From Stramenopiles sp. TOSAG23-6 (lineage: Eukaryota; Sar): a stretch of DNA of 25,704 nt. The translations under genes and the position numbers were made by a program. The DNA is taken from NCBI GenBank assembly GCA_900128565.1, contig LT635992.1, positions 1-25,704 of the forward strand, in the 5' to 3' direction. Under the pieces are notes generated by a model that saw nothing but the letters and a program-made list of their open reading frames with translations, was not told the DNA's origin and made no database searches. Shown piece by piece: positions 2,294 through 25,500 of this stretch; position 1 is the first letter of the stretch, and each line of letters starts with the position of its first letter.

Positions 2294-5200
2294 ATGCTTT
2301 ACCCTGGAGCTACAGTAGACTGTACGTATGACTCGAAGTTTCGAGCAGCACGTCCAGATGAACCATACACATATCACGGACACATTACAAATATTGACGG
2401 TCCAAATATTTTCATTGATTTTGGAGCTGATGGGGTTTTTCGTTTCGAAAAATTAAGCTCAAAGAACAATACTTTAGTGGATATAGATGGTTTTGAAATA
2501 AAAGTTAAAACTCTAAATAGTCCTCTGGACAAAAGCCGACAACGTCAGTATGCACCTAAACCTTTAAAAGTAGAGAAAACGATAAAGGAGGATAAAAATA
2601 TTTTAGATTTGTTTCTTAAAACCACGGAAGATGAACTGAACCAAGAGATCAAAGTGGAACAAAGGAATACTAGGGATTTCACGATTCCAGAGCTATCTGC
2701 TTCCGTTGGCAGAGATGCTGAAAGTCCCTCTTCTACAATGGAGGATAAAAAATCACTTGCTAACTCAGGAAATCAATTACGTATATCACATAGTCCAATT
2801 TCTTTAAAATCCCAACTTCGCAGTAACTCAAAAGACATTTCCGTCGGGGATGCCATTTCAGTCTTATATTCTGAATCATTTCAACAGGAATTCCCAGGAG
2901 AGCCATACGATTATACAGGAATTGTCACGGCAATAGTTCCAGAAACTCAATTTGAAAATGGAGAACTGGTTATTGATTTTGGAGTTGAAGGAGAATTTGC
3001 ATACAAGAAAAAACGAGATTCATGTATATTTTATTTTTTTTCAAATTCGAATTTTTTTTTCGTACGAAACTTTGTACCTAACGAATTTTTTTTCAAATAT
3101 TTTTCCAAAATACATATTTCGATCCTGATGATTTCGAGGTCCGTGTGAAAATAGTCCCAAATTTATCCTCTGTCAATCAAATTTTAGTTGACGATAGAAA
3201 CTATTTTGCGACAGCAGGAAATGATACATTTAATGATTCACAAGGTTTCGCCAGTTCGCCATTTGAAAAGCAACAAAATAATAACTTAAATACAAATAGC
3301 CGACCAACCTCAAGACCTGTGCCGGGGGTCAAACCTGCGTTATGTCGCCGACCAGTTCAATTTGCTTCATTTGAAGAGGGAAAACGACTTCAGCGAGTTC
3401 CGGCAAATGATTCAAGTTCGGGAAATCCAGGTTCACTTGGTGATATGACGTATGCAATGTCTGAATTATCGAAAATGGAAATTCCAAATTGGAGGGATCA
3501 TTGTGATGCACTGAAGGAAGGAAAATGGCAGGGAAAACGAGCAGCTTTGGTTGCTATTCAAGAACAATGTGAACGGATGGGACCTAATATTGACAAATTT
3601 CACAGAGGCGTTTCTTCATTTTGTTATCAATTGACGAAAAAATTCACTGAGCGGAATTTTAACGTTATTGCTTCTGCAATCGATGTAATAACAGTAATAG
3701 CAATGGCAGGCAATGATAAACACAAGAAATTTCCTAGAGGTATTGCTGCTCTTATAATGCCAATACTTCTAAAACAGGTAGGAGATCGAAGAATTGGTGC
3801 TTCTATAAAATCACTTGCAGGTATCATTGGAGAGTGTTGCGGTGTAAAATGGATGATTCGTTTAATAACTGATACTAGTAAAAAGAAAAGCTTTAAAGAT
3901 CCAAAGGCACTTGCAGCTGTCCTCGATATAATTGCAACGTCATCCACTGAATTTGGTCCTAATGCCGTTGACCTTGATGCTGTTGTAAAATATGTATCAG
4001 GTCCGAAAGGAGTTGCACATCACCAAGGTCGTGTTGTAAATGGAGCGGCGGTAAAAGCATTAGGAGTTTTATATACCCTGGTAGGTCAACCAGTAAAAGA
4101 CATTCTTGAAGAAATGCAAACTTCGAATAAGATTATGAAACAGTTGAAAACTGCTTTTGAGGCTGGAGATGTTAATGCCAAAATAAAAGGAGGATTTACT
4201 CCAATAAACCGCAATAAATCATTAAATAAAAGTCTGAATGCTTCTAAACATAAGTCACCAAAGAAAAGTCACAGTCAACTTAGACGCTCTCTATCGAATC
4301 AGAGAAATAGTCCTACAAAACGCGGAGGTAGTTTTCTGGGATCAACACTTACTAGTTCTACTTCCAACAATTCCAATAGTACACCAGAAGAAGAAGAAAA
4401 GGCATCACAAAATGATGATATTGAGCGTATGGATATTTCACCATTTATTACAGATGATTTACTAAAGAATTTACTCGACTTCTCGAAAACGGATTCTTGG
4501 AAGCAGAGAAAGTTAGGGCTTGAAGAGTGTCATGAAATTATGACAAAAAGAGCCAAATATAGAATTATTGTAAATCGAACACTAGAAAAACTTATCAAAA
4601 TTTTAAAAGACCGTTCACTAGAAAAAAATGCAACACTTAAAATTAAAGCTCTGAAAATAATTGGCATTTTAGGATTGTCAATTGAACGGAATCATCCAAG
4701 ACGCAGTGAAATGACTCGATGGCTTGCACCTGCAATCGTAGAAACATTTGCAGACAAAAAGAGAGCTACTCTCGCAGCGGGAATATCGGCACTAAGTAGA
4801 TGGTCTTCTGGTCGATTTGGATTGTCAGGAATATTACCATCGACATGTGCATCTTTAGTAGACAAACCTGTCTCCCGTCCAGCTTTACTTGCATGGTTAT
4901 TAATACATATTCCAAAGGCAACCTCTGCTGGACATATCGATGGTACTCGCATGACAAAGTTATTAGTGAAACCATTGCTAATTTGTATGAACGACAAAAT
5001 GAAAGTGGTACAAAAACAAGCCGCAAGTGTCCTCGTAGAAGTTATTCGAGCTGATAAGTCTCACGCGAGACTCGCTGTTTCTGAAGCAGCGAGTAAATTC
5101 TCAAAAGCGATACAAAGGAGTATCGATATTGTTTTAGAACGTGTAGATACTGCTGTGGAATCGGGGAAATCTTTTAATTCGGTTGATCAGCAAGCAGCAA

Positions 5201-8200
5201 AAAAAGCTAGTGCTAAGTGGGGATCTACAAGGAAAGTTTTAGGTACCCGAAGAAAACTTTCCGGTGGTCGACGACGTATGGCTAGCCCTGTTGCCAGATC
5301 AGGAAGAACTGGGCTCCAAAAATCGTCCAAAAAAAAGGCTGATGATGTCATTACATTAGTATCTTCTCTGGATGCTTCATCTAAAATTGCTAGTATTGGT
5401 ATTCTTGACTGGAAAAAGCACAGTAATGTCTCAAAAGATAGTACGTGGCAGGAAAAGAAGGATGCTTTAACTGCTATTTGTAATTACTGTTCAAACGGTG
5501 AATCAAACGTAGAAAAAAATGTACATCCAATATATTGTTATTGTTATTATTTAACAAATAATTTCGTAGAAACAAATTTTAATGTTAATTTGAGTATGTT
5601 TCAGTTAATGATTTTACTAGCTAAAAAGAGCAAAGGCACATTCGCGAAAGGACATGCCAAGTTAATCATACCATTCTTAGTGAATAAACTCGGAGAACAA
5701 ATGGTTGCAGCGAAGGCTACTGAGCTAATCTTGATGCTTTCAACACGATGTGGTGCCAAATACATTATTGGTCTAATACTTGAAGCTGTAAGTTCAATAG
5801 ATACTTCTCTAATCCAAATAGCTGTTCTACGGTTGTTTGAAGTCATGATTTCAACTGTGGGAATTCGAACGTTTAATGTTGCAGCGGTAACAAGGCACGC
5901 GTCTGGGACGAAAGGAATGAGTAGTGATGTTAAAAGTGTTGTAAAAGCAGCATCAGTGATGTTGCAAGCCTTATACAAGCAACTTGGACCTCCGCTTGTT
6001 AACCTATTGCGCGCAGTTGAGGCAAGTAATGACGTCATAGAAAAGTTAGAAGCATCTTTTGATGTTTGCGGTTATGACATTAATGCATCTGCTGCAAACA
6101 CTAGTGTCATTCCCGAAGCATTAGCTGCAGCTGCCGCATCTTCACGAAATTCGCGCAGGCAGAATGTTGTTAATGTTTCATTTGATGATGCACCCCGTGC
6201 AGATATATCACAATACGTAACCCCCGAATTAATGGCTCTACTATCTGCCCAGGAGAGAAAAGATTCCTGGATCCAACGCAAACAAGGTTTGGATCAAATT
6301 GAGTCTATAATATTTGAACAGGCTCAACAGCGAATATCAATGAGCCCAGCAACAGAGAAGCTGATTCGATCACTTGCGGATAGAGCGCGCGAGAAAAATT
6401 TATCATTAAAATTACAGGCTTTGAAATTGCTTGCAGCTTTAGGAGGGGCAATTGATTCAGCACAATTACCTAGATTTAGCCCTGTGGTTGTTCCTCCAAT
6501 GATAGATGCACTCGCAGATAACAAAGTTAATGCTCGACGAGCTGGATTTGAAGCTCTTGAAGCTTGGTCAATTCCCCGAGACGGGCCTTATCAAGGGCGT
6601 TCTTATGGCTTTGCTTCCATAGTACCAAAGGTTAGAGGGCCACTAGTGAATAAGCCTACAGTGCGACCTGAATTATTAGCTTGGCTGTTGAAACATATTC
6701 CTGTGGCTGCATCTACGGGACTCATTGACAGTGCTCGTCTAACGAAACAATTAGTGAAACCATTGGTAGCATGTATGCAGGATAAAAAGAAAGTTGTCCA
6801 GAAACAGGCCGCAAGTGTCCTCATTGAAGTTGTACGAGCGGATCCTTCACGAGCAAGTTTTGCCTTGAGTGCTGCTGTCAGCAAGTTACCTCGAGCCGTG
6901 CAACGAGGTTTGCAGACAGATTTAGATAGAATACACACAGAAGGTAGAGCTGCCCTAAATAATGGAGAAGTGGGCACATCTCAGTCAAATCAAAAGGCAG
7001 TAACCGCACCACCTAAATTGAGACGTCATCGTAGTAGGAGCCTCGGTGGACGTAATAATGGAATAGAAGGTAAAGATGTTTTGGCTGTTGCTTTAGGTGG
7101 CGCTCTGAGCGGATATGCTGATGGTGATGAGAGATTTGATATTTCATTTCAACTGCGGCCTGAACTTATTGCTCAGATGCAAGATTGTACTGATAGAAAT
7201 AGTTGGACGGAAAGAAGAGATGCAATGATTGAGTTGGATAAAATATTAAAGAAAGCACATGCCTCTGGAGGGATATGTTTGACTAGAAAAGTTGCCGAAG
7301 TTCTTCGAGTACTGAAAGCTCGATGCTTAGAAAAGAATATGTTGTTGAGGGTTAAAGCATTACAATTAACAGCAGGATTTGGTCGATGTATTTCGCTTGA
7401 TCGAAGAAAAAAAGTTGTTGCTATTTGCACTCCTTCGATATGTGAAGCTGTCGCTGACATGAAGGCTTCAGTGAGGGATGCTGCCCTTGATGCACTTGAA
7501 GCATGGACAGTTGATGGAAATAATTCACCTGTCTGTCTCGGAGATATTCTCCCATGTGTGTGTGAGCCACTTCGAAAAAGGCCTGCCACACGTGGAGAGT
7601 TATTGCATTGGTGTCTTCATTGGTTACCTATTGCAATACGCCTGGAACGGGAACGTCTCAACATTGCACGGATTTGTAAAATCATGATAAAACCATTAGT
7701 TGTCTGCATGGAAGATAGATCGAAGGTTATAAATAGACAAGCTGCAAGTGTTTTAGTACATCTCATTAGAGCCGAACCCGTAGTTGGTAGATTATCACTC
7801 GCCACAGCAACAGCTAATATGAAGTCAGCAGTGTCTATGGCATTGCAACCTATGATGGGTGAAGTCCTCCGTATGGCATCGATACCATCAAGTGGAGATC
7901 CAAGTGAAGATGTACCAGCATTTGATACTCCACCACCCGTGAGAAAAAGACCTGGAGCATGGTCAAATGGAATCAGCCGTGTCAGACAAAAACTGGTAGA
8001 CGCAAGAGAAGGTGGTAGTCAACATAAATACGCGGCTGCGGCATCAGCTGCACGAAAAGCTTCCCGTCGGACGCGAGCAGCATCATCAAGAAACACGATT
8101 CGTAGAGCTCGAACTCGCTCAGCAGCGGCATCGGCAGCACAACGACGACGTTCACAAAAGAAGCGACGCTCACCGCTCAGAGGGCACCGTGGTCGCAAAA

Positions 8201-8619
8201 ATTCTGATTCTACTTCACCTTTTAGAATTGAAAATTTAAGTCCTAAGGTTTCCATTAAAACAGAAATGTCTAAACCAGATGATGTTTCTGATGTAGTAGA
8301 TATGTTGAGTGCAAAGGCAGAGATTGCTAGGTATAGACAAATGTTGAAGTCTTCACTTCGGCTATCCATGTCCACATCAGATATTGAAGACACGAAAAAG
8401 CATGAAAGAAAGACGAATGAAGAAAGCCCAACAAGACCAATATCTGACCCTTCTGGGTTTTTAATGGGTGTTGATCAAAATCTATTACAAGGTTTGAAAG
8501 GTGCTCAAAAAACTTCACCTCCACCAAAGAATAGTAGGGAGTCTCCGAAACAATTTTTAAAAAAGCCGAGAAGTCCACCTGGTAAATTAAAGCCATTGGT
8601 TGAAACAAAATCAAAATGA
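2294..8619 (+). CDS. XMAP215/CKAP5/MOR1-family microtubule polymerase with five TOG repeats and N-terminal tandem Tudor/SH3-like repeats
   Basis: Two exons, 2294-3021 and 3114-8619, total 6234 nt (2077 aa); both phases agree. Five HEAT-type TOG arrays begin near residues 369 (WRDHCDALKEGKWQGKRAA), 684 (SWKQRKLGLEE), 1003 (WQEKKDALTAI), 1278 (SWIQRKQGLDQ) and 1590 (SWTERRDAM). TOG1 resembles TOG3; TOG2, 4 and 5 resemble one another, each ending in a KPL..CM.D...V..QAASVLV helix pair. TOG proteins bind tubulin dimers and promote growth at microtubule plus ends and kinetochores. The C-terminus is basic and Ala/Arg/Ser-rich (about 1850-2077), suiting lattice binding. Unusually, residues 1-255 hold two similar modules (PDEPYTYHGHI...IDFGADGVF and PGEPYDYTGIV...IDFGVEGEF) resembling Tudor/SH3-like barrels; the intron splits the second. 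The family call is strong; the N-terminal fold is inference. Confidence 0.9.
3022..3113 (+). repeat. Introner-family intron copy 5
   Basis: 92 nt, from ATGTATATTTT to CCAAAATAC, with CGTACGAAACTTTGTACC and CTAACGAA in the centre. AT lies on both sides. Excision joins the second Tudor-like repeat (KKRDS to YFDPDDFEVRVK), aligned with DIDGFEIKVK in repeat 1, and makes the whole gene a multiple of three. No AG is present at the boundary required by the frame. Confidence 0.85.
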
Positions 8620-8684
8620 AGAAATAAAAAACAGTCTTACTTAAAATTATTTATTTTTTATATCATTTCAATGATCATTAGAAT
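8620..8684. terminator. Shared convergent 3' region with AATAAA on both strands
   Basis: Only 65 bp separate the converging TOG and SANT gene stops. AATAAA occurs on the + strand at 8623-8628 and on the - strand at 8650-8655. Whether this organism uses AATAAA for polyadenylation is unknown. The 3' ends of the two transcripts may overlap. Confidence 0.35.
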
Positions 8685-11123
8685 TTAAAAACTAGAAATT
8701 GCAGAAAGTTCAAGTCTTTGACGATTCATCATTTCTATTGCAGCTGATCGATATTGACAAACAAGAGATTTCTGCGTAATATTACTCTTGTTTTGAACAT
8801 TTGATAGAAAATTTGCCCTACGATTTCGTTTTCGGTAATGCATGAGATCTCTACAAGCTGTGCGAAAGATAGACATCTTCCCTGAGATATTTTGTTTCAT
8901 CTGTTCATCAAATGAAGAACGTAAATTTTCCTGTTCAATCGCATGCTTGTAGGTTATTTGTTTAATTTGTTCACCATTACACTCTGAATGACTGATACTA
9001 ACACTTTTAAAAGGAGTCTTAAAATCGATATCATTATAACAGGCATGAGAAAATATCTTACAAGTAACACCGTCTATATTATTTTGTGAGTACTTTTTTG
9101 TTGTATTCAGCGATGCATTGTCCATTTTTTTTCGATACGTCTCTACATCAATAAACTCCATCTTTTTTCTCTGTTTTCGTATTTCTTTTAATTTATTTTG
9201 ATGAGAAGTTTGCAAAGATTTCGCGATATTCAATGCAACTTCTTTTAGAGATCTTACATCACCAACTGAGTTATTATATGGTAGAAATTTATTGGACAGT
9301 TCAATTTGAGATATATTATTTTCGCAAATCTCCTCAATGATAGGCAGTGCTACATGTTTTGACTTTTCTGTATTGGATGGATGTAGTGGTCTTGCTGTTG
9401 ATATTTTATCTGGAAGGCAATCAGGAGATACCATTGTGTTACGTATCGACACTCCTGAAATTGGAGTGTGTATTGTATTGAGATTGGATTGTTGAGGAGT
9501 ATTGAATGAGTCATTTAGAACCTTACGAGTAGGCTTTGGTGTAGCATTTAATGCAGAATGAGATAATATTGGAGTAGGCGGTGGCATCAAAGTATGTGGT
9601 CGAGGAGTGCTGGGGATGGAGTTCATTTCACAGGAGTTTATCGTAGATTTTTTATCTTTACAAAAGTGATGCAATTTTCGCCTTAACTTTGGATTTGAAA
9701 ATAGACAACGGGCAACAACAATAGCATCGTCATTGCGTTTCCTTTTCTTGATTTCTTTAGTAGTGAAAGTGCAGTGTTTTGACCCTGATACACGTCGGAC
9801 TTTATTATCTTTTGGAAAAATTTCATTCGTTGCCATTTTAGGGGCACTTCGTTTATTTGTCTTTTTATTTCGCATTTGTTGACGGAACCGACGACTTTTT
9901 CGGTTTTCTTCTAATGGCTTATCTAAAGGTGAAGTTGCTTTTACCGAGGGAGTTGAGTGTATTGCATTTGTAACAACATCTGGTGGTGAAGAATTTCGTT
10001 TTGGAGGTTTTGTTGCTGTTTTTTCGAAGGATTCCAGAGGATCACTTTGGATTTCTTTACTAGATTTCACAAAATTTTCTGTTTTTGGATTCGTCTGTAT
10101 TTTCTTCTTTGACTTTTGTGGTCGTGTAGATACTTTCCGTTGTATTGTTGATGTCTTTACAACTTGTGTTGGATTTTGTACAGATGTTGTTGTTTGAGAA
10201 ATAAACTGACTTTTTACACGAGTTTTTCGTTTGGTTCTCGTTTTCGTAACTAAAGAATTTTGACACATTCTTCGCCGTAATCGACATATTTTAACATGCT
10301 TTGACGTAAATCGAAGACCTAATGCACGGTATGTTTCGTCTAGAAGTTCGCCACTCTTTTTTTCTTTCAAAAGTGAACGATATAGCTTTTCGCACTGATT
10401 TCCTGTACGCCCAGGAATATGAAGAGAAAATAATCCCCATTTTGCACTGTCCTCAATGATGACTTTATCGACTGTATCGAAACGAACAATTGGATCCCAT
10501 GGTGGACGAGTTACCATTATTGCTTTAAATAATTCAATTTCATCATTTGTCCACTGAGCTGTTATCATACGTTCTCCTGGAGGGCAATATCGTTGATAGT
10601 AAAAGTTTGGATCTTCAGATAGCTTCTCCCAGGCGTTGCGACGTGTCGAGTTCCAACTGAGATGACATGGCGTTACTAGTTTCGATGGTAAACAAGATAA
10701 TTTTGTGGATTTTGGCGTTGTATTTCGAGTTTTAGACGTAGACGTGTGAGGTATTGGTGACTTTGAGCTTTCACGAAGACGTGTGCTCGGGGAGTTTTTT
10801 TTCATACTTGGAATTTCTACCTTCAAGTCTGATGAACCGCTTACAACAGAAGCCAAACTATTGGTATGACTTGTGATGACGTTGACTGATTGTTCATTCA
10901 ATTGTTTTTTCTCAGATTTTGCACTATGTCCTGTTAAGGTTTTCACATTCGTGCTCTTGCCCTTGGCTTCATTTTCTTTGTTTTCACTCAGAGACATTGC
11001 TACGGAAGGATCTCTGTTTTTACCTTTCAAAGTTACTAGCCTGGTATTCGAATTGGCCCTGGATACAGCACTCATCTGCATCGCATACGCAATTTGCTGC
11101 CTTTCAGTCATGCGAGGAAACAT
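8685..11123 (-). CDS. SANT/Myb-domain nuclear protein
   Basis: Intronless, 812 aa. The only confident domain is a SANT/Myb-like module at about 190-255. It follows a conserved-looking lead (DPNFYYQRYCPPGER) and contains QWTNDEIELFKAIM and WGLFSLHIPGRTGNQC, the classic tryptophan-spaced helices with an IPGRT...QC...YR recognition helix. The rest is low-complexity, Ser/Thr/Lys-rich and basic, with many short Lys/Arg clusters that would serve as nuclear localisation signals and several SP/TP sites. A role in chromatin or transcription is likely. I could not place it in a named family such as KNL2/MIS18BP1, which also carry SANT modules. The start at 11123 is preceded by a short leader with TATA-like motifs at about 11162-11181. 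The absence of introns contrasts with most neighbours. Confidence 0.75.
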   Translation of the reverse strand: MFPRMTERQQIAYAMQMSAVSRANSNTRLVTLKGKNRDPSVAMSLSENKENEAKGKSTNVKTLTGHSAKSEKKQLNEQSVNVITSHTNSLASVVSGSSDLKVEIPSMKKNSPSTRLRESSKSPIPHTSTSKTRNTTPKSTKLSCLPSKLVTPCHLSWNSTRRNAWEKLSEDPNFYYQRYCPPGERMITAQWTNDEIELFKAIMVTRPPWDPIVRFDTVDKVIIEDSAKWGLFSLHIPGRTGNQCEKLYRSLLKEKKSGELLDETYRALGLRFTSKHVKICRLRRRMCQNSLVTKTRTKRKTRVKSQFISQTTTSVQNPTQVVKTSTIQRKVSTRPQKSKKKIQTNPKTENFVKSSKEIQSDPLESFEKTATKPPKRNSSPPDVVTNAIHSTPSVKATSPLDKPLEENRKSRRFRQQMRNKKTNKRSAPKMATNEIFPKDNKVRRVSGSKHCTFTTKEIKKRKRNDDAIVVARCLFSNPKLRRKLHHFCKDKKSTINSCEMNSIPSTPRPHTLMPPPTPILSHSALNATPKPTRKVLNDSFNTPQQSNLNTIHTPISGVSIRNTMVSPDCLPDKISTARPLHPSNTEKSKHVALPIIEEICENNISQIELSNKFLPYNNSVGDVRSLKEVALNIAKSLQTSHQNKLKEIRKQRKKMEFIDVETYRKKMDNASLNTTKKYSQNNIDGVTCKIFSHACYNDIDFKTPFKSVSISHSECNGEQIKQITYKHAIEQENLRSSFDEQMKQNISGKMSIFRTACRDLMHYRKRNRRANFLSNVQNKSNITQKSLVCQYRSAAIEMMNRQRLELSAISSF

Positions 11124-11441
11124 TTTTACAATTACCGTATAGGGGGCGGGACGTTCTCTTTTTTATATAAAGATTTATATATAGAACTTACATACACAAA
11201 GGAGATCAAGTAGAAGAAAAATGAAAAGGGCGCCAAAATATTTGGAAAAAGGCGCGTAAAAAAACATTCAAAAAAGAACACGAAATATCAGAAATTCAAA
11301 AAAAAGAAAATTTCCTGATTTAGATTATGAAATATCTTATTTCTCTGATGCTAATGTATTGACATTTTTCAAAGAATATACTCCTTATTACAACAAAGAA
11401 TTATATACTGTTTATGATTATATTTATTTTTTAAATTTTTT
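11124..11441 (-). promoter_or_regulatory. Promoter region of the SANT gene and 3' flank of the LRR gene
   Basis: 318 bp with no credible gene. Read on the minus strand it has TATATAAA twice (11162-11169 and 11174-11181), about 40-60 bp before the ATG. Further upstream is TTTTGGCGCCC (11228-11238), resembling an E2F site, near an ACGCGCC motif (about 11250). These suggest cell-cycle-type control, but they are consensus matches only. Confidence 0.35.
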
Positions 11442-13459
11442 TTATAATTCTTTATCATTCATTCTTCTATCTTCAGGCATCGGGGAATACATTCGTAAGC
11501 CTTTGTTATCATTAATATTCAGAACCAATGTTTTTCTTCTATTTTTTGTAGCCTTTTCATTTTTAGTTTCCTCTTCAAAAATTGTATTTGCGGCTACAAC
11601 CATAGCGTTAGGCACTGTACCTGTCAGATTATTTTGATGTAAATCAATGACACGTAGCGTTTGAAGTTGACGAATATTTCCAATATGCTTTGGTATATTA
11701 CCTTGAAAGAAATTGGTCTGAAGGTATAACGATTCTAGATTGTATAGAAATCCAATTTCTTTGGGTAATTTGCCAGAAAACTGATTATTGTATAAACTTA
11801 ACCATTTCAACTTCTTTAATTTTCCAATATGAGCAGGTAAAGAAGAAGAAAAATTGTTATTTTGTAAAGCCAAATAAACTAAGTTTTCCAATTTACCTAT
11901 TGTAGGTGGCAAAGGACCATTAATCTTATTATTTGCCAAAGTCATTGTTCGGAGTGCGGTGAAGGCACCAAGAGGAAGTATTGTGAAAAAATATGTTACA
12001 TTTGAATTCTTTAGGTACAAAATTTTCAATGAAAAAAATAACTTTTACATTAAAGTGTATAACGTACAACAGTTGGTAAGTTTCCTTTCAGCCGATTATT
12101 AGATAAATCAATGCCAACAATTCTCCCTTCCTCGCACAATATTCCAGTCCAAATATATTATGAAAAAATATTTCAAAAAAAATCGTTAGGTACAAAATTT
12201 CGTACGAAACAAAAACGAATTTGAAAAAAAAATAAAACATACATATATCCTCGACTTTTATTAGCATATTTTGCAGTTGCAGCACCACCAGCATAACATG
12301 GATCTGAGTTACTTGCCATCCACCCTGAATTTGATATCCAATTTGGACCATCTAAAGCATAAAAAATTTCTAACAACGCTTTTTTTTCCTCGGGATGGCA
12401 CCGATTTCTATATCTGATTGCATCATCTATTTTTGGTAGTGTACCGGGCAAACTGTTTTCCTCTGGATTTGTAGCAGGGATAAGGAAATTGGACTGTGCA
12501 AATGCTTTGCCTGTACCTACTGCCGTCGTTGGAATTTCTTGACTGGGTGAAGCTGGTACAACTTCCCCCTTTTCTCTTTTTTCACGCCTCCACTCCGACA
12601 ACATGTTTAACGCTAATGCTTCTCCCCTATTACCTACAATTACAACATCCCGAGAGTCTTCTGCGCCATATCGGTAAATATTATAACCACCGTTGTCCCA
12701 CTTTACTCGCACCGCATATTTATCTCTAGCAACTTCACCACTCCACCAAGTCACTTCCATTACAATACCTTTTGGATACACAAACTGACCATCTTTTGAA
12801 AAATCGATACCTCCATCTTGATTGTCCCATTTCCAATCAGGTCCTCTGGTCACAGTACTACCAGCTTCGATGTCGTCATAATTATATTCCCTAGTTTGCA
12901 GATAAGCAAATATTGGGTTTTCTGGCGGTTGAAAAACGTCCAATCGTCTTTGTTGCATTAATACTCGGAGACGCTGTTGCTCCTGTTGTCGCAGGGTATG
13001 CGACTCCGCTGCAGCACCATGGTGAGCTACAGGACTAGTGAAACGTTCACTGTATTGTTCTTCTACGATATTTTCAGAAATTAAATTACCAACATTCGAA
13101 GTGCTTTCACTATCTTTATCGTTGGTTGGTGTCTGAATATCCAAAATATTCACAATATTATATTTACTCTTTTTGTTGTTTGTAGAGAGAGCATTTTCTT
13201 GCTCCCCAGGGAGCAAAGCATTATTCTCTGCATTTTTATGGGAACTTACTATAGTGGGATCTTGAAAGACAATCTCAGTAGGTTTCCCTTTCGGATACCA
13301 ATATGGTATATTATCTTCCAAACTACCCCTTACCCATTCTATGTCTTTTGAGATGGAAACTAAGTCATTTACAACTTCCAAGGGACTAGCTAGACATGTA
13401 GGGAGATAAGAAACTATACCGTGTCCAATGATGCTAAATAAAATAACTTTTAATCGCAT
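11442..13459 (-). CDS. Secreted MIB/HERC2-domain plus leucine-rich-repeat protein
   Basis: Three exons on the minus strand, 13459-12245, 12154-12070 and 11977-11442, give 1836 nt (611 aa) with consistent phases. The N-terminus is a signal peptide ending near CLAS (residue 25). Residues 199-276 match a MIB/HERC2 module (GSTVTRGPDWKWDNQDGG, then VRVKWDNGGYNIYRYG). A plant-type LRR region follows: an N-terminal cap (KALLEIFYALDGPNW, then WTGILCEEGRIVGIDLSNN) and about five repeats of the N-NxFSGxLPxxIGxLxxL kind. It ends with a hydrophilic tail and no transmembrane segment, so it is probably secreted or wall-associated. MIB/HERC2 modules are mostly known from intracellular ubiquitin ligases, so a secreted copy joined to LRRs is odd. 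The ligand is unknown. Both introns fall inside the LRR cap and first repeat. Confidence 0.85.
11978..12069 (-). repeat. Introner-family intron copy 7
   Basis: 92 nt. Minus-strand start TTGTACGTTATAC, end TTTTTTCACAATAC, with GAAAATTTTGTACCTAA inside. TT flanks both sides. Removal joins NLPTV to PLGAFTALRTMTLANN, an uninterrupted LRR. No AG is available near the junction. Confidence 0.85.
12155..12244 (-). repeat. Introner-family intron copy 6
   Basis: 90 nt. Minus-strand start ATGTATGTTTTATT, end TTTTTTCATAATAT, with the CGTACGAAATTTTGTACC palindrome and CTAACGA. The repeated flank is ATATAT on both sides. Removal gives SRGY-IWTGILC, the Trp-Thr-Gly-Ile...Cys of an LRR cap. The nearest downstream AG is far inside conserved coding sequence. 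Confidence 0.87.
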
Positions 13460-14582: not shown

Positions 14583-14666
14583 TCGTTCCTTATTTTTTGT
14601 AATATTCTTGTTCTTGTCGAAAAAACGTTTGTGTTTAATTAATCGTCGTTCAATCGCGTGGACAAG

Positions 14667-14947: not shown

Positions 14948-16124
14948 ATGCCACCAACAACTAGATCTCAAGTGCTAAAGCAGCTCAGTGAACGGATTGA
15001 GGAAATTTCAGATCACAATGATAGAAACTGTCGTGTTTTGCATAATACCCGCACAATCATTGCTGGAATTACATCTGAATTAGAAAAAGCTAATAGTAAG
15101 TATAATAGTACTGAGCGAAGTAAAACTCGCGCGCGTGGATACCGGGGAAACTATGACACTCGGTACCAAAAGCGGACAAAGTATAACACAGGTCATGGAA
15201 GAGGTCGGGGAAAAGGACGTGGGAGAGGTCGGGGAAGAGGTCGTGGGAGAGGACGTGGAAGAGGACGTGGTAGAGGTACTGGAAGATATACTGGAAGAGG
15301 GTGTGCTAGAACGCACCGAGGATCTAGTGGTAGTTGTAATTCGGTGAAAAATCCGAGGAAAATAGGAAATACTGGAAATTTAGTCTGGATTGCACCAAAA
15401 AAAGGCAGTCGTACTTCTCCAACTGATTTTAATAATAGTTTTATAGAAAAAAAAAAAAAAAACGCAACAATATTGTACATTTTACTGCCGATATGGTCGT
15501 TGTGCTAAAGCGGGTAAGTGTGAATTTATACACGATGCCGCAAAAGTTGTACGTTTTCATTTCAACTTCAATTATTTTTTCATACGAAATTTTGTACCTA
15601 ACAAATTTAAGTTTTTTTTTTTTGAAATATTTCTTTACAATACTTGCAGTTTGTAAAAAATTTTTGAGAGGTAGTTGCAAAGATAAGAATTGTCTATTAT
15701 CTCATAAAATATCTCCAGAGAAAATGCCTGTTTGTATATTTTATCTCTCTGGGGTATGCCCTAAAGGCAAGTCAAAATGTCCATATTCGCATGTGAGGGT
15801 AAATCCTAGTGCTCCCATCTGTGTAGATTTTAATAATGCCGGTGGTTGTCGATTAGGTGTTGTACGTTTTATTTTTTTTTTTAGTAAATATTTTTTTTTC
15901 ATACGAAATTTTGTACCTAACGAATTAAATTTTTTTTTTTTTTCACAATACATTTGTGCCCTCATCGACATATAGTACAGTCAAAAAAGCGACAAATTCA
16001 AAATAAATCTAATGGAAACCGTCTTTCAAATAACCCTAACAAACGTATGAAAACTGAAACAAGCACAAGTTGGGATATAAAAATAGATGATAGTATGAAA
16101 GTTCGACCACAATTCGCAAGATGA
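14948..16124 (+). CDS. ZC3H3-like CCCH zinc finger protein with RG-rich region and apparent frameshift
   Basis: Start chosen at 14948 (ACAAAATGCC); an in-frame ATG at 14921 would add nine hydrophobic residues. Exons: 14948-15546, 15644-15859, 15952-16124. The N-terminal half is basic with a long Arg-Gly tract (about 15196-15302). After a run of 16 A bases (15447-15462) the frame must shift, equal to one A too many, to enter the zinc fingers; probably a homopolymer error. The finger region reads CTFYCRYGRC...KCEFIHD, CKKFLRGSCKDKNCLLSHK, CIFYLSGVCPKGKSKCPYSH and CVDFNNAGGC-RLG--CPHRH. Spacing and the EKMPVC link closely match animal and plant ZC3H3-type proteins, nuclear factors for polyadenylation or mRNA export. 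It ends KVRPQFAR. Both introns split fingers, and frame plus Cys/His spacing define the joins. Confidence 0.82.
15196..15302 (+). repeat. Arg-Gly dipeptide-coding tandem repeat
   Basis: A degenerate GGACGTGGAAGAGGTCG-type tandem array encodes about 17 consecutive Arg/Lys-Gly pairs in the ZC3H3-like protein. RG tracts commonly bind RNA and are arginine-methylated. The purine-rich strand bias is strong. Confidence 0.75.
15447..15462 (+). other. A16 homopolymer at the site of a reading-frame break
   Basis: Sixteen consecutive A bases sit exactly where the upstream RG-rich frame must change to the zinc finger frame. Fifteen A bases would make the gene continuous. Assembly or polymerase slippage error is the simplest reading; programmed or transcriptional slippage is the alternative. 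Confidence 0.6.
15547..15643 (+). repeat. Introner-family intron copy 8
   Basis: 97 nt from TTGTACGTTTTC to TTTACAATAC, with CATACGAAATTTTGTACC and CTAACAAA inside. TTG occurs at both edges. Excision gives DAAKV-AVCKKFLRG, matching the KVAVC link of ZC3H3 proteins. A CAG lies five bases beyond the junction, but using it with the GT start puts a stop in frame. Confidence 0.87.
15860..15951 (+). repeat. Introner-family intron copy 9
   Basis: 92 nt from TTGTACGTTTTATT to TTTCACAATAC, with CATACGAAATTTTGTACC and CTAACGAA. Excision completes the last finger as C-x8-C-x5-C-x3-H (CRLG-x-LCPHRH). Flanks TT and AT match only at one base, so the exact cut could move by a base or two. The split codon reads Asp or Val. 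Confidence 0.8.
16031..16040 (+). repeat. Short telomere-like TAACCCTAAC tract in the ZC3H3-like C-terminus
   Basis: One and a half CCCTAA units in coding sequence, encoding Asn-Pro-Asn, 75 bp before the stop. Weak alone, but it has the same motif and coding phase as the tracts at 1145 and 13853. Confidence 0.35.
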
Positions 16125-17256: not shown

Positions 17257-17695
17257 AGCAATGCGTTATACTCGTGCCGATTATAATATTTTAGATTTCA
17301 TGGACAATTATAAAAGATTATTTTGTGAATCGCACACCAAACCTTGAGACGTCGGCGAAGTAAAAAAACAACAATTATTTTGGAAAATTGATGTTTGAAA
17401 ATTTGATTTCATTTCAAGCGTTTTTGAAATTTTTCGTCAAGACGTTTAAGTACGAAAAAAATAGTACGGAATGGAATATCACAATGCAACACTAAATGGA
17501 CACATTTAGCGACATTTTGTAGAAAAACACTAAAAAAATGGTAAAAACAGGATATTAATACATTCACTACATAAAAAGAATCATTTGGAGTAAAAAGTTT
17601 AACGATACAAATCAAGTCATGTTATGTTAACCTCATAAATCTCATAAATCATAACTACTAAAAAAAAAAAGCACATTTTTTTTTAGGTTTAGCTT
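17257..17695. other. Intergenic region upstream of MND1
   Basis: 439 bp between the MND1 start and the stop of the next minus-strand gene. Very AT-rich. A small direct duplication CTCATAAATCTCATAAATCATA lies at about 17632-17653. It should contain the MND1 promoter; I recognise no element confidently. Confidence 0.3.
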
Positions 17696-18451: not shown

Positions 18452-18715
18452 TTTCTTGAGTATCTTGCTTTGTTCGGTTTTGTGTATTCGCTTTGTGGTT
18501 TTCTTCTGACCGGAACGACGAATATTTTCAAAATTTTAACGTATAATACAAATTTGAACGCGGTATGTATCCCGGTTCTTCGTCTTTTCTTCATTATTGT
18601 GTTGAAAAGTTCCAAAAGTTCCTCTCAAGTTCGTCGCTGTGTTCCATCACTGTTCCGCAATTAATTCGAAATATTGACTGAAAATATAGTTGTCCAATGA
18701 TAATAGAAACTCCCC

Positions 18716-20050
18716 ATGGCAGATGAAAATCGGTTAACTACCGAGTTTCCTGGAACTTCTGGGAAGTTAAAATTACTTCACCTAAACATATTTCTGAGAA
18801 CTCCTTCTTTTATTTTGAGAGACCATCAAGAGANTCGATTTCAGTGGTTCTGTCGAAATGTAATAGACAGTTGTGAGTATGACGTTATTGCTCTGCAAGA
18901 ATGTTTCGGAACTTTTACCACTCGTAGACGCCGGCTTGTAAAGAGAGCTTGTAAACTTGGCTATTCTGCTGTTGTATCTCCTAGAGGATGTTGCAAAGTT
19001 GTCGACGGGGGTATAATGATCTTATCTCGGTACCCCATAGAGGAAAGTGCGTATCATATTTTTAGGTCAGGTGTCGGCATTGATCGTATTGCTTCTAAAG
19101 GTGTCGCATATGCTCGTATTGTGCTAGACAATGGTCGCAGAATACACCTATGTGTTACGCACCTACAGTCTTCCTATACCCTTTGGCCCTCTGATGCTAC
19201 AGTGAAAGCTCGAGAAATGCAAGTTGCAGAACTCGCCGATTTTTTGCAGTCGAAAATGCTTGACTCTCCTACAAATTGGCCTTTGTTAATTTCTGGAGAC
19301 TTAAACATGGATGCTTTCTTGCAAAAAGGTAGAGACGAACTAACATTGGCACATAAGGTGTTAAATAATGCTATTCCACAACAATCCGATACAGAAAATC
19401 AAAAAAGAAAATTAATTCATGTACTTTTTCATCATTCACTTCAAATTAAAAAAAAAAAATTTCATAGAAAATTTTGTACCTAACGATTTTTTTCGAAATA
19501 TTTTTTCACAAAATATGCAGGACTTTCTTTTTTTGGAAAACATATTCCTACGACTTTACCCTTTTTATTTAAACGAAGTGCACTTGGCGAAGAAATGATA
19601 GGTACTACTGCAATATTTAGAACAGACCCAGTGCCTATTGAAGATGGCGATTATGTATTATCTTGCTGTAGAGAAGAAATCCAGGAACAAAAAACTCCTT
19701 TTGAGGAGAAAACTCTGAAAACAGGAAAAATAGCATCGGATATTCCTCAACAAAAAACACTTACGCGACCTCGCATGTTATCGCGTGAGTTGACTGAAAC
19801 TCAACTTAGTCCAAAATCAAAGCACTATGGAACTGATACTGATTCATTAATGATTTCAGAAAATCAATTTTATGCTCAAATGGCTCTAGATCATATTTTT
19901 TTCGAAGAGGTAGGCCTTTCATTAACCAAGATGAAACTTGAAAAGTTTTTTGCTGAACCTGTCACTGACTCATCAAATAAGTTGAAAGAATTCCCATTTA
20001 GACAGTTATCAGATCATCATGGACTTGTTCTTGAATTTGATGTCACTTAA
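18716..20050 (+). CDS. Neutral sphingomyelinase-like phosphodiesterase (endonuclease/exonuclease/phosphatase fold)
   Basis: Exons 18716-19418 and 19515-20050 total 1239 nt (412 aa) in a single frame. The fold's motifs are in order: LHLNIF near the start (where the family usually has N), DVIALQECFG with the metal-binding Glu (about residue 62), GGIMILSRYPI, THLQSS, ISGDLNMDAF (about 190), and near the C-terminus LDHIFF and LSDHHGLVLEF with the catalytic Asp-His (about 400). GGIMILSRYPI and the GKH.PTT segment after the intron point to neutral sphingomyelinase, which cleaves sphingomyelin to ceramide and phosphocholine; related phospholipases C or inositol phosphatases remain possible. No signal peptide or clear membrane segment is seen. 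One N at 18834 makes a residue ambiguous (Glu or Asp). Spacing between the GD.N and DH motifs is long, with a Thr/Lys-rich insert at about 275-340. Confidence 0.82.
19419..19514 (+). repeat. Introner-family intron copy 10
   Basis: 96 nt from ATGTACTTTTTC to TTTTTTCACAAAAT, with CATAGAAAATTTTGTACC and CTAACGA. ATG lies on both sides. Excision gives KLIH-AGLSFFGKHIPTT in frame. Using the CAG four bases downstream with the GT start shifts the frame and destroys the SFFGKH motif. Confidence 0.85.
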
Positions 20051-20403
20051 AGTTTTTATAAAAAAATTATCAGAAACAGTTTTTGACTTCCACAAATCTT
20101 TATTGGATATTTTTTCAATTAACTTTGCCATCTTTAAGTAACAAATGTTGGTTTTCACTTGCTACTTTTATTTTAAAAGAAATAAATTTAACCGATACAT
20201 ACGTTAAATCGGAATTAACGGTTTCGTTTCGAGGACCTGCCTGGTATAAATAATAATAATATAATATAACACAATGGCTACGTCGTATACGTACATATTA
20301 TAAAGGAAGGGAACAATTTTCTTGTTGTGAATTAGATATGAACCTATCCTCTAATATAGTGTACACTTAAATATCGCTTTGCTTTATACAAAGGTTGACG
20401 TAA
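20051..20403 (+). promoter_or_regulatory. Intergenic region upstream of the WW/ankyrin gene
   Basis: 353 bp between tandem genes, no credible gene. It holds a GGTATAAATA element at about 20243-20252 followed by an ATA/ATT microsatellite-like stretch, about 150 bp before the ATG. It should contain the upstream gene's 3' end and the downstream promoter. Confidence 0.35.
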
Positions 20404-22363
20404 ATGTCTTCATCATTCGATGATAGGTCTGAAGGTCCAAAATGGCGTGAGATACGTCAAGGGGACGGCGGTCGTGTTGTCTACATGAATACTGAAACTG
20501 AGGAGATATCTTTAGAAAGACCAGAGGAAATGATTGATACAGAACCAAAACATGGCGATGAAGGTGATTGCATGGAAGCCCCTCCAGAAAATTTCAATTG
20601 GGAAAAGTTTCGATATAAACCACCAGTTGGTTTTGAGCATGTACCATTTGAAGCCCGACCCCTTGAGGTCCTTCAACCAACCGGTGAAAAGACGTTAATG
20701 TACAAAGGTGAAACAATTTCTTCTGCTTGCTACAAAAGGGATCCATACAAATTGAATATTCTTTTGGCATTTGGAGGAGATTTGAACTTTAAAGATGAAT
20801 ATGGTCAAACTGCTTTACACATGTATGTTTTATTTTTTTGAAAATTTGATTGTTTTTTTTTCGTACGAAATTTTGTACCTAACAAATATTTTTAGATTTT
20901 TTTTAAATATTTTTCCAGAATACATAGCAGCTTCAGCAGGGGCAACGAACGCAGTGAAGATGCTCATTGAAAAAGGTGCTGATTTAAATGTCCAAGATGA
21001 ATTTCGGAATACCCCACTCCACTGTGCTGCTGATGTTGGGTCTATCGGATGTTGTAAAGCTCTAGTTTTTGCGGAGGCTGATTTGCTTATTCGAAGTCCC
21101 TATGCAGGTCCTCAAATGTGTAATGTCGGTGCTCGAGGTGGTACGGCGGCTGACCTAGCTAAATCTAAAGGATTTCGTACCCTTTTTAAGTTTCTAAAGT
21201 CTCAAGAAGAGAAACTTTCAGAAATCGCAAATGCGGAAAAGAATGCACGAGATGCCGTTCGTGCAGCCAATGACCCTGTCTTTAAGTTAAAATTAATCAT
21301 TGAAAAATGTATTGAATTAGGCGAAGCCTCTGCCGATAAAACTACTTTTGATACATGTCTCTTAAACATTGAAGAGCGAAGCTGGGAAGGATACGATGTG
21401 GAACATTATATAAAGCTATGGTCACGACGACTACAGGAATGTAAGGATGATTTAGAAATGGATGAATTGGACGAAGAGGCCGCGGAGGAAGAGGCGCGAA
21501 GAGCAGCAATGTGTCGCACAGAAAATTGTGATTCGCCAATATACATGGTGCAGCCGAATGGATTTTGTACAAAATGTAATTTAAAAAAAACTCAAGAGGG
21601 TACAAAAGTATTGACTTCTAAAGAAGCCATCGCTTCTGCATTTACTGTATCCACACAGGCTTCCTTGGCGGCTTCTGTAGCCATGAATGAAGCTGTAGCA
21701 GCGCCTTGGATAGCCACAAGGGGATTTCTGTTGATACATTATATCAAGACAAGTACAAGTGGTCTTTCTGAGGATGACTATCGAAAAATTGTCTTTGAAG
21801 AAATGTCAAAGAAAGAAGTCCTAGCCGCATGTCAAAAGGAAGGTGTTACAACACACATCTCAATTATGAGATCATCTGGTTTTTCCGTCGAAGATGAAAA
21901 TGATGGTATTGATCTTACTATTAGTGAGAGTTCAATGTTTGATAGAGCAGAAATGGAAAATAAAGCCGAAAAGCGCAAAATAGAGATTGAGGTTTCAAAA
22001 TGGAAAAAAAGAGTAGAACCAAGATCCAATCGCGTATACTGGATTCATTCAGATAGTGGCAAAAGAACATGGAAAGATCCAAGAATAGAAATAGAAGATA
22101 GAATGATGGCTGAACGTGAAGCATCGAAAATAGCTAAAGAAAAATCAAATTCAACGAAAGCTAACTGGGAGTTGTCAGATGATGATAATGACGAAAATGG
22201 TGCAGGGTTCAATCTCATGAAAGCAAGGCGAAAAGCCCTTTTAGAATGTTATCTCGCTGATGCTGACGCGGATGTAGACCCAATGGATTTTAGAGATATG
22301 ATTACAGAAATGAATGACGAAGAAGTTCAAGAAGCATGCGAAGAAGAAGATTTGGATATTTAA
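20404..22363 (+). CDS. WW / ankyrin / A20-type zinc finger multidomain protein
   Basis: Exons 20404-20820 (139 codons) and 20924-22363 (480 codons including stop) encode 618 aa. Domains in order: a WW-like module at about 12-40 (PKWREI...GRVVYMNTETEEISLERP); at least two ankyrin repeats at about 105-185 (DEYGQTALH-IAASAG, then DEFRNTPLHCAADVG); an acidic helical region; a Cys motif C-x4-C-x11-C-x2-C at about 335-356 fitting the A20 zinc finger spacing; and a second WW module at about 496-525 (WKKRV...NRVYWIHSDSGKRTWKDP). The C-terminus is acidic. WW modules bind proline motifs, ankyrin repeats bind proteins and A20 fingers bind ubiquitin, so a scaffold role is likely. I know no named family with this order. 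The intron falls exactly inside the TALHIAA ankyrin signature. AATAAA immediately follows the stop. Confidence 0.82.
20821..20923 (+). repeat. Introner-family intron copy 11
   Basis: 103 nt from ATGTATGTTTTATT to TTTTTCCAGAATAC, with CGTACGAAATTTTGTACC and CTAACAAA. ACAT precedes the GT at the 5' edge and ends the sliding window at the 3' edge. Only removal between these repeats gives GQTALH-IAASAG, the ankyrin consensus. Nearby TAG and CAG sites give the wrong frame or delete the AASAG helix. Confidence 0.9.
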
Positions 22364-22532
22364 ATAAAAACATTAATATTTTGATCAATTGCACAGAATA
22401 AAATATTTTACAATCATTTNTTGTTTTCCAACACGAACAAAGTTGTTTCTATACATAAACATAAACTGTATCCACATTTCGCACCTAAAACAATTCAACT
22501 TTTCTGAGTGTCAACGCCTCTGATATCACCTT
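22364..22532. terminator. Convergent 3' region of the WW/ankyrin and TRAPPC9-like genes
   Basis: 169 bp between converging stops, with AATAAA on the + strand at 22363-22368 and again near 22396, and one N near 22420. No other feature is recognised. Confidence 0.3.
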
Positions 22533-25500
22533 TCAACATACAAAAAGTTCCACGACACGGTGACTCCAATATTTCATACCATTACATAGTAAACAGGTTG
22601 CTATTGCAAACTCGCCAGATTTCAAAAATCTTGCGTAGATTTGATGCTTGAATATTTCCCCAGGTAGTATACTACCTAATGAAATGTTTCGACACCCCGT
22701 GAGAAGAACATCCTCAGAAATTCCAAATTGATTCATCGAATCAAAACATCGAATCCATTCGTTGCGGCTACCACGACATAAAAGAATTACCGATAACATT
22801 TCGATACATTCACTCTTAGCATTCATTGTATTTTTTATATCTATTTGTACAGTATAAGATTTTCCGCGAATGATTTGAAGGGTATTTGCTTTCTCTTTTT
22901 TATTTAATTCATGATTATTTTCTATGTTCAGCAAGGTAACATTAAATGTAAACCGAGAAGACATGAGCAAAGTATGTTGCAATGCAAAAAGAGATTCTTG
23001 AGATTTGTGAGGAGATATGAGTCTTTCATCATTCTTATCACTAATTTTCTTATCAATAGTGTAATCACAGGGACCTACAATAGGGATAATCGTTGTTCCT
23101 ATACGAGCATTTTTATAGTCACCTAATTTCCAATTTATATAAACACACCAGCCTTCTTTAATATTTTTACAGTAGGCAATTTCAGATTTTGGAATAGTTC
23201 TGTCTTCGAACCGAGAATTTCGATAAGTAAGAATTTCAACGCGAGATGAAGAACCAGGGTAAATAACTTTGGTGACAGTGCAAATTGATTTTTTAGTGAT
23301 AGTACGCAAGACATTTTTAGTAGTAGTAGTAGTAGTATTCATACAATCATTACTTTTACTTTTTGTATCATTATTTGCAGCATTTTGACAGTATAGCACA
23401 TCACAGTTTACTACCATTGCACATAATAAATTATTATTTATTTCAACTGTTACCTTGCATGTTTCACTATCGGTATCAACAAAAAATGAACTATTTCTTA
23501 CATCTTTTGTCATTTTATTTAAATGATTTGAGATTTTGCATTGAATCATATCAATAGAAAGATTAGGCAAGACTGGACAAATATTGAGCGACTCTAACTT
23601 GAAATGATCTCTATTTTGTAATAAAAGATCTATGGTAGAAACTCTTTTCATAGGATCTGCAAAAACGGTAGATGTATTTTGAAGAATATCAATATTATCA
23701 GTGTAATGGAATTTAATTAAAATTCGAGCCACATCAATTTCAGCAGAAAGTAAAGCATTCATTTTAAATGCAGCACCTGGCATTAGAGGTAATTTATTTG
23801 ATATTTCTTGTATTGATTTGAAGGACCATGCTATTGATCCTGTTACTACTTTACCATTAAACATATGCGATTCTGTTTTTGCCACTACTTTGCCATTTGA
23901 GATAGAAAAATTAAATAATTCGTACTTTTTCTTAGAAATATATGACGTCATAACACTAGTGCGATGAATAGATTCTATTTCAACAGTACACTGAAGATAT
24001 GATAATGAAATAGAACCTATATTTTCCGCAAGAATTGCTATTGGTTTAATTTCACCTTTTAAAAGCTCTATAGAAGTGACACCCTCTATTAACAATAAAG
24101 GATTCAGTTGCGGCGATTCGGATGCATTTAATTGATGTATAGAAACTTTATTAGCCATCGACGAATTATGTTTACTACGGAGAACTAAAAGTGGCATTTT
24201 CTTATAGACAATCATCTCTAGAGGACATGCTTTGCTTGCTCTATTTGGATCCATGCATAACGACTGTACTTTTCGTACAGATGTACGGCGTGGTGATAGC
24301 TGTATATTTGGTATTGTACTATCATTCATTGATCTGAATATGTGAGAACTCCTTCGTAATTGAATGAACGAATACCCAAGGGTAAGCATCTGACAACCTG
24401 TGATTTCAACACGACCTGGCATCAAGGCTTTCGCAGATAAGACAATTGTCATTGTCGTTTTTGCATTTATTGTAAACGCAACAACGAAAGCCTCTACAGG
24501 CGCTCCACCTTCTGCATATGACATTTGTAAAGAATCAACAGGTAGGGCAATACTTAAAGGATTATACAAAGTAACTTCAACATTAAACACTTCATCTGTT
24601 ACCCATTGTACTGTTTTAGTTTTTTTTACTTTTTTATGAGACTGAAATGGATTATATTCAAGTACACGGGGTTTATTATTCGCACACTGTTCTGGAAGAT
24701 CCATACTTCCATTATTTGAGATATCACCGCCGACATTGGATTTATCAGTATTTATAGGCATTGGTTGATGATTTTTTCTAATATGACAGAACTCAAAGCC
24801 AAGTAAAATTGGAATACCATTAAATCCATTTTGATGATCAAGAATATTCTTTCTTTCATCGAAGCTTTCCTTTTGTGTTTTATCTACGTTTTTATCTATA
24901 ATTATCTCTTCTTTGAAATGATAATTGTAACACATTGAGTATGTTTTGTAGGAAGATAGATGTATAGAACAATGGCGTAACTCTCTGAAAATACTTTTTT
25001 GCTTAGCCGTATTTAAAACTTCGCTAATTGAGCCAAGTTTTAAAAGCCGCATCCCATGGGCTATCACTAAATTATATTTAGCAAGTGACCAAGCTAAATT
25101 CATTAACGATCTCAACAACAAACATTGCAACGAAGGTGAGCCAAGATTATTGTAATAATTTTTACATGTATAGTGAAAAAATATATATTTTCTAAATTTG
25201 TTAGGTACGAAATTTCGTAGGAAAAAAAAGTTCGAAATTGAAAAACAATAATTCTTACATGTTTTGTGCATTTTATCGCTTTGTTTTGTACTGCTGATAT
25301 CTTTCAATATTTGATTTTCTTCAACAATTTTGGATGTTTCTAATTCAATTGTAGGAATAGCTGCACATTGAATGGCAACAGACATTTCTAAAGCATATGC
25401 TCGAGATATTCGTATTGTATCACTCATCTTTAAATTTTTACTCTGTACAATTAATGAATTGCGTTTTTGAAGGGTAAAACTTGGAGAACTCTTGAACGAT

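Follow-up and report, generated by a model that had tools for sequence, protein, structure and literature searches.

Short repeated elements interrupt protist genes and probably act as introns ending in YAU

The 25,704-nt stretch of DNA analysed here (the window) contains eleven full copies of one short element and a further copy truncated by its left end. All of them, as read by eye, lie on the strand of the gene that they interrupt. The copies are listed below with their start and end motifs and the dinucleotides before and after the element.

1 to 55, plus strand: copy 1, 5' part beyond the window; ends in CACAATAC, the terminal sequence of the element, plus TT; nhmmer match 2-55 to model positions 44-97
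214 to 310, plus strand: copy 2, in a cyclic-nucleotide-binding-like gene (named by eye); GTACGT to AATACGT, flanks AA and GT
694 to 792, plus strand: copy 3, same gene as copy 2; irregular end CACAGTGTGA, 3' coordinate approximate; a CACAG is out of frame
906 to 1011, plus strand: copy 4, same gene as copies 2 and 3; GTACAT to CATTACTT, flanks TT and TT
3024 to 3115, plus strand: copy 5, in a TOG-domain (XMAP215/CLASP-like) gene at 2294-8619; GTATAT to AAATACAT, flanks AT and AT; spliced length 6234
11976 to 12067, minus strand: copy 6, in an LRR gene; GTACGT to AATACTT, flanks TT and TT
12153 to 12242, minus strand: copy 7, in the LRR gene of copy 6; GTATGT to AATATAT, flanks AT and AT
15549 to 15645, plus strand: copy 8, in a ZC3H3-like CCCH gene; GTACGT to AATACTT, flanks TT and TT; join gapless against the nearest homologues (AAKV/AVC)
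15862 to 15953, plus strand: copy 9, in the ZC3H3-like CCCH gene of copy 8; GTACGT to AATACAT, flanks TT and AT; join residue V or D
19421 to 19516, plus strand: copy 10, in an endonuclease/exonuclease/phosphatase-like gene (named by eye); GTACTT to AAAATAT
20823 to 20925, plus strand: copy 11, in an ankyrin-like gene at 20404-22363 (named by eye); GTATGT to CAGAATACAT; an out-of-frame CAG lies 5 nt upstream of the 2-nt flank
25166 to 25258, minus strand: copy 12, in a gene spanning 22533-25703; GTAAGA to TATACAT

The initial annotation held that cuts at non-AG ends bring conserved protein motifs back into frame, and we confirmed this for the joins TALH/IAASAG, RGY/IWTGILC, NLPTV/PLGAF, AAKV/AVC, KLIH/AGLSFFGKH and RDS/YFDPDDFEVRVK. 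Gene lengths described there as multiples of three were recomputed as 6234, 1836 and 1857 nt, with the fourth being 1239 nt from the ATG at 18716 (1233 nt from 18722). The nearby AGs had been said to break the frame, hit stops or delete conserved residues. Of the 26 found in nine window copies, between 40 nt upstream and 45 nt downstream of the 3' end, twenty shift the frame and run into a stop inside 40 codons. A further one keeps the frame and meets a stop, and the last five keep it and meet none, with 8-13 residues added or removed. For the copy at 12153-12242 the 40-codon look-ahead enters the next copy, and the stop flags, being raised for the predicted join too, are meaningless. The proposed boundaries stood only in part. 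The non-AG end was upheld, and the WT...AC register appears less likely than GT...(Y)NT, the best register, which is shifted by 2 nt (for example 20823-20925).

The window is a single contig from an assembly of 8.0 Mb that is eukaryotic and probably belongs to a stramenopile. A search with the element core gave 2,360 matches across this assembly compared to 20 for the reversed control, and by this sequence count some two thousand copies of a single short element sit inside host genes. Such sequence-similar copies at unrelated gene positions within one genome are what characterizes introners. Eighty-four distinct full copies, 82-117 nt long, were collected from 313 kb of screened sequence (overlaps included). 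The element starts with GT in 78 of them, with a donor consensus GTAYGTTTT in a U1-like context. A core ACCTAA, which resembles a U2-type branch site in motif only, is present in 72 copies and lies 32-59 nt from the 3' end, while a T-rich stretch at -15 to -11 resembles a U-tract, again in motif. The donor, the branch core (ACCTAA in 33 of 42) and the 3' end are still conserved among the lower-scoring half of the copies. The termini are inverted (GTAT...ATAC) over only about 4 bp, the terminal dinucleotide of the element itself is AC in 59 of the 84 copies, and the 2-nt flanks are identical in 63 of 84, resembling a target-site duplication (TSD). All six copies followed by TT are also preceded by it (p 5e-7 for the TT pairing). 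The element and the coding sequence around it share a strand in 79 of 82 copies, with the remaining three showing weak coding scores on both strands. A 15-mer search also returned 66 matches to viral contigs, which were taken as chance.

We predicted the cut to run from the first GT of the element to two bases beyond the terminal ATAC. This cut restores the reading frame in 74 of 82 copies, where one third is expected by chance (p 7e-27), and in 51 of the 53 copies that have strong coding signal on either side. For six copies the start had been reset by eye prior to counting; with the original starts the numbers are 69 of 82 and 49 of 53. Among the eight failures, one is due to an anchor misplaced by 2 nt (L112:6608), one copy adjoins a second copy (L098:7586) and one has another copy about 33 nt off (L026:1825). 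The other five (L019:1454, L006:1453, L004:228, L100:5420 and L007:2394) have no explanation, L019 being the one with strong signal. Homologue alignments show no gap at twelve of thirteen covered junctions, namely those in genes for an insulin-degrading enzyme, a CaMK-like kinase (two), MATE (two), a FANCJ-like helicase (two), an asparaginase, an aspartic protease (two of three) and ZC3H3 (two).

The last triplet of the predicted intron is CAT in 49 copies, TAT in 14, CGT in seven, CTT in six and others in eight (n=84), with a pyrimidine at -3 in 83 of 84. YAT triplets also occur between the branch core and the end in 74 of 80 copies; YAU by itself is therefore insufficient to define the site. 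Conventional GT-AG introns with misjudged boundaries have almost no probability left. A CAG does occur near the end of some copies (20823-20925 and 694-792 in the window) and an AG lies between the branch core and the end in 26 of 80, but the first AG past the branch-like site is in frame in only 26 of 82 copies, which is the chance level, none of the 84 has, at the join that keeps the frame, the final AG of a U2-type 3' site, and it is at the non-AG join that homologue alignments run gapless. Frame, homology and orientation strongly support excision at a 3' end other than AG. The splicing machinery that the initial annotation held responsible is suggested by the U1-like donor, the branch-like site, the U-tract, the sense orientation and the presence in the assembly of genes for PRPF8 (domain E 8.6e-231) and Slu7 (E 7.6e-54).

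In our reading the repeats are probably spliceosomal introns derived from a MITE-like introner with a 2-bp target duplication and a YAU acceptor. The element would insert as DNA, duplicating a 2-bp NT target that is mostly AT, and would move as a DNA transposon. It would supply the donor GTAYGTTTT, which is compatible with U1, together with ACCTAAC as branch site and a U-tract, and would end in ...CAATAY, so that the 3' target copy completes a YAU acceptor instead of YAG. A U2-type spliceosome whose 3'-site recognition accepts YAU would then remove the element in RNA, and excision of GTAYG...(Y)AT would give back the uninterrupted coding sequence.

The same introns might instead be cut as NT...AC, mostly AT-AC, with the 3' target dinucleotide staying in the exon and an AT-AC-like boundary chemistry. 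Identical flanks give the same product either way, and AC is the element's commonest final dinucleotide. Where flanks differ (whole genome, unique strings), AT is the 3' copy in 27 strings and the 5' copy in five; the combination 5'GT/3'AT outnumbers its reverse by 17 to 2 and 5'TT/3'AT by 10 to 3. The former excess could mean that G was gained or favoured as the first intron base and the latter asymmetry is weak by itself (p 0.09), although its direction disfavours NT...AC. In one MATE gene (L020:1459) NT...AC yields LE followed by a stop, whereas GT...YAT yields LEWW; this is the one stop among 21 unequal-flank products, against none of 21 under GT...YAT. The first intron base would moreover vary among A, G, T and C, yet GT starts nearly all elements. 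U12-type AT-AC introns have the donor ATATCCTT and a branch site TTCCTTAAC 10-20 nt from the end, which neither the donor nor the branch distance found here resembles. Because AT is the 3' copy when flanks differ and one WT...AC product carries an in-frame stop, the WT...AC boundary appears less likely than GT...YAT, and we regard it as rather unlikely.

Removal without a spliceosome, by pairing of the intron ends as in euglenid nonconventional introns or Amoebophrya hairpin introners, seems improbable. The GTAT/ATAC ends are complementary and bordered by direct repeats, and 37% of 83 folds show three or more end pairs, compared to 12% of shuffles (a weak effect, mean z -0.84). By the same measure, however, 63% of copies lack paired ends, and it is the donor, branch core and U-tract that are conserved instead. 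The mostly CAG/CTG pairing of positions +4 to +6 with -8 to -6 described for euglenids (PMC4770533) is missing, as a column tally gave YGT and (C/A)AA at these positions. Elimination at the DNA level, with the elements still in place in the cell that was sampled but gone from a developed nucleus, is very improbable. Like this element, ciliate IES have short inverted termini and a repeat of 2 bp. Excision of DNA should ignore the strand of the gene, but the copies are almost uniformly sense, which disfavours this explanation, as does the conservation of the branch core and U-tract. For one protein, Mnd1, the closest named relatives among the matches listed (the best 120 of 552) are oomycetes and not ciliates.

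Several known systems share parts of this arrangement. In Fritillaria, larvacean tunicates with a preserved spliceosome core, most introns are not GT/AG, 3'AT is the commonest end (44% in F. pellucida, 34% in F. borealis), the AG/AC and AG/AT classes almost always have a YAY triplet at the 3' end, and duplicated, divergent U2AF subunits are a trait of such introns (PMC13326754). Among the 84 copies here, 63 end in YAT and 4 in YAC, which may be an analogy, with no shared ancestry implied. Fritillaria is an animal with diverse introns whose major non-canonical classes start with AG, whereas here a non-animal host has a normal GTAYGT donor and the introns detected come from a single element family. 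Amoebophrya, also a protist, has introns that recur as transposon-like repeats, are bordered by direct repeats and have non-canonical ends. There the direct repeats measure 3-5 nt and the inverted ones 8-20 nt, the splice motifs vary greatly and 30-34% of the introns are GT-AG (PMC7789003), unlike the 2-nt repeats, about four complementary end bases, uniform GT...YAT and absence of any detected GT-AG intron here. Euglenid introns likewise have non-canonical ends, direct repeats on recent gain and ongoing gain, but their borders are variable, unlike the conserved donor, branch core and U-tract here, where end pairing is weak (PMC4770533). The introners of Gozashti et al. 2022 are MITE-like, bring one of the two splice sites with them and draw the second from the TSD, as Chrysochromulina introners do for the 3' site, mostly without net mRNA change. 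Known TSDs are 3-9 bp and donors rarely GC or GA, with non-AG acceptors unmentioned in the available sections (PMC9860276); the present element has a 2-bp TSD and AU as putative recruited acceptor. Yeast without Prp18 uses CAU and UAU most among non-G 3' sites, helped by upstream poly(U) (PMC10711555), although that is a mutant state and this putatively the normal state of a genome. Among the titles and abstracts searched, mostly outside the subscription literature, none dealt with introners or with introns lacking AG in MAST-type stramenopiles. Few, long predicted introns are given for MAST genomes in the portion available of PMC5269757, and the passages available of a second genome paper do not contain the word intron (PMC8163842). 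For three proteins, no near-identical sequence from another source was among the matches listed (best 57%, 43% and 51% identity; one listing being the best 120 of 552).

A frame-change scan of 225 kb detected no conventional (GT-AG) intron. It gave twenty frame-changing interruptions, seventeen with the element, one with a decayed copy and two at apparent sequence errors. At the loosest setting of the gap scan there were 78 element-free gaps, of which 74 stay within one frame (noise) and four change it, two of these being sequence errors and the other two decayed copies. Two of fourteen element-bearing gaps are antisense at this setting, against fourteen of fourteen sense in the other gap scan. 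A stretch GTACAT...TTTCAG at 5521-5604 in the window was rejected as an intron, as it is in frame, looks coding and encodes residues similar to those of a further TOG repeat in this protein.

With chances that we put somewhat short of even, this protist may have given up the AG rule: all introns that can be detected in it would belong to one transposon-born family, its U2-type spliceosome would use YAU as the standard 3' site, and the element's target preference (AT) would have become the acceptor signal of the genome. If confirmed in RNA, this would place a spliceosome working routinely on non-AG acceptors in a lineage far from tunicates, and the single uniform signal GTAYGT...YAU would make the mechanism easy to test. 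Intron birth would be tied to acceptor choice, with the target duplication completing the 3' site, and gene prediction built on the AG assumption would overlook or disrupt the interrupted genes in genomes of this kind.

Searches of the assembly gave no match for U6 (Rfam search), U2 (pattern search), U2AF1 or Prp18; since the controls for U6 and Prp18 gave no signal either and the assembly probably has gaps, these four absences decide nothing. The part of PRPF8 that contacts the 3' site was checked for change, and NAQRSGLNQIPNRR, which we take to be the stretch holding the contacting glutamine, looks normal, while a 12-residue linker patch of the protein is strongly divergent from human.

A profile built from the eleven full copies of the element in the window recovered 84 distinct full copies in the 313 kb of sequence sampled, namely the window, twenty 10-kb stretches and 30 loci chosen by an exact match to the core, which partly overlap. 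The copies are 82-117 nt long (median 96) and follow the consensus (N)T|GTAYGTTTT ... TTTTGTACCTAACGAA ... ATTTTTYCACAATAC|(N)T, in which the donor, the core of the branch site and the 3' end are conserved also among the lower-scoring half of copies. In the whole assembly (8,027,113 bases in 408 contigs, of which the window is all of C42), the 16-base core has 2,360 matches when at most two mismatches are allowed, duplicates counted, against 20 for the reversed control. Two copies at positions 7482-7678 of sampled locus L098 lie back to back with zero exon between them.

The initial annotation had claimed that the exon joins forced by frame and homology at 3022-25260 are not GT-AG, and this is borne out across the sample. 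None of the 84 copies terminates in AG and 63 end in CAT or TAT. Using a codon model trained on 85 long ORFs, with frames compared over 30 codons either side, the join from the element's GT to two bases past ATAC was found to match frames in 74 of the 82 copies with usable flanks, and in 51 of the 53 with a clear coding signal on both sides. When the 3' end was set instead at the first AG beyond the branch-like site, only 26 of 82 were in frame. Before this final count, five copies whose start fell at a GT lying 4 nt within the element were re-anchored to the aligned start and one further start was shifted by 2 nt; 69 of 82 matched before re-anchoring. Among the eight failures, L112:6608 needs another 2-nt shift, after which the join stays open for longer, L098:7586 adjoins a second copy and L026:1825 lies about 33 nt from another one; the remaining five, including L019:1454 with its strong signal, are unexplained. 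After re-anchoring, four copies (L013:1955, L015:1460, L025:1455 and L104:2899) begin with AT (ATACG) in place of GT, and as all of them join in frame, removal may not require even the GT of the donor.

Alignment with database homologues or with the best solved structure covered thirteen junctions in seven genes, and twelve of these junctions are gapless at the predicted join.

Junctions compared with homologues
Insulin-degrading enzyme: 1 junction, no gap
CaMK-like kinase: 2 junctions, no gap
MATE: 2 junctions, no gap
FANCJ-like helicase: 2 junctions, no gap; first junction outside the alignment
Asparaginase: 1 junction, no gap
Aspartic protease: 2 of 3 junctions without gap
ZC3H3 (CCCH gene; copies at 15549-15645 and 15862-15953): 2 junctions, no gap; several remoter homologues gapped nearby

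At the third aspartic protease join, a one-residue gap lies two residues downstream against four of seven homologues and is absent against the other three. An A run at 15450-15466 of the window disrupts the frame of the CCCH gene and is probably a homopolymer length error.

Ordinary introns were sought as frame changes within one-strand coding sequence in 225 kb. Twenty such places were found, seventeen of which contain the element; the others are one decayed copy and two apparent sequence errors (a C run and a stretch with N). The scan caught only part of the copies, the same sequence having 64 matches at E < 1e-3, and frame-keeping introns are invisible to it, so the absence of GT-AG introns here means that none were detected.

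The element strand is the coding strand in 79 of 82 cases. The flanking dinucleotides are the same in 63 of 84 copies, and TT follows six copies, all of which also have TT before them (p = 5e-7). These flanks point to a 2-bp target duplication and hence to a probable insertion of the element by DNA transposition. Where the flanks are identical, the exact cut is hidden. Exact patterns with unequal flanks were counted genome-wide: 5'GT/3'AT has 21 occurrences (17 of them unique strings) and its reverse 2, while 5'TT/3'AT has 12 (10 unique) and its reverse 3 (p = 0.09 alone), with both pairs pooled giving 27 against 5 (p = 1e-4). This asymmetry suggests that the 3' dinucleotide acts as an intron signal and the 5' one as exon. 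At L020:1459, keeping the 3' copy places a stop inside the conserved LEWW motif; the ZC3H3 copy leaves the register undecided.

The element's donor fits U1 pairing. Its branch core is at a distance of 32-59 nt from the end, ahead of which there is a T-tract, and genes for PRPF8 (open frame of 2021 aa) and Slu7 are present. Prp18, U2 and U6 were not found in the assembly, which is probably incomplete, and the Prp18 and U6 controls were silent. In the GT...YAT register, the last C (or T) of the element and the target AT would form YAU. Yeast lacking Prp18 is reported to use CAU and UAU more efficiently than any other non-G 3' sites, with poly(U) favouring their use (PMC10711555), and in Fritillaria, 3'AT introns are described as common, with the main non-canonical classes ending in a YAY triplet (PMC13326754). 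Taken together, these features and parallels suggest that the most likely mechanism for the putative removal of the element would be U2-type chemistry of the ordinary kind, with a relaxed acceptor. Earlier YAT triplets occur between branch core and end in 74 of 80 copies, and pairing of the RNA ends exceeds the shuffled level, yet is seen in just 37% of 83 folds. The PRPF8 stretch L118 (C84:13230-13850) has 7 of about 194 residues unlike the human chain, but a single linker patch departs from it at 9 of its 12 residues (human TDFKQYQVLKQN, here KHFRQYIQYRTD).

The finding of elements without a terminal AG is real, genome-wide and strange. Judged from sequence, they are best regarded as a family of introners with putative splicing at an acceptor other than AG, a novel variant of both known introners and known non-canonical spliceosomal introns.

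Contig C1 opens with a partial eukaryotic 18S gene. Among the best 120 of 552 matches to the window's Mnd1 protein, the closest (57% identity) is from a EukProt set, and the next named ones are two oomycetes (44 and 42%), followed by a bird and, lower, a brown alga. The host is probably a stramenopile and may be an uncultured flagellate of the MAST type. Long inverted duplications within contigs C2 (locus L100), C128 and C381 suggest whole-genome amplification chimeras. Short telomere-type repeats, CCCTAACCC, are dispersed within and between genes on both strands (window 1148, 13855 and 16144; also L100, L104, L114 and others). In 225 kb there are 22 overlapping matches against 0.55 in shuffles; these fall at 20 distinct places, and three pairs are inverted duplicates within L100. 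Some of these repeats encode NPNP stretches.
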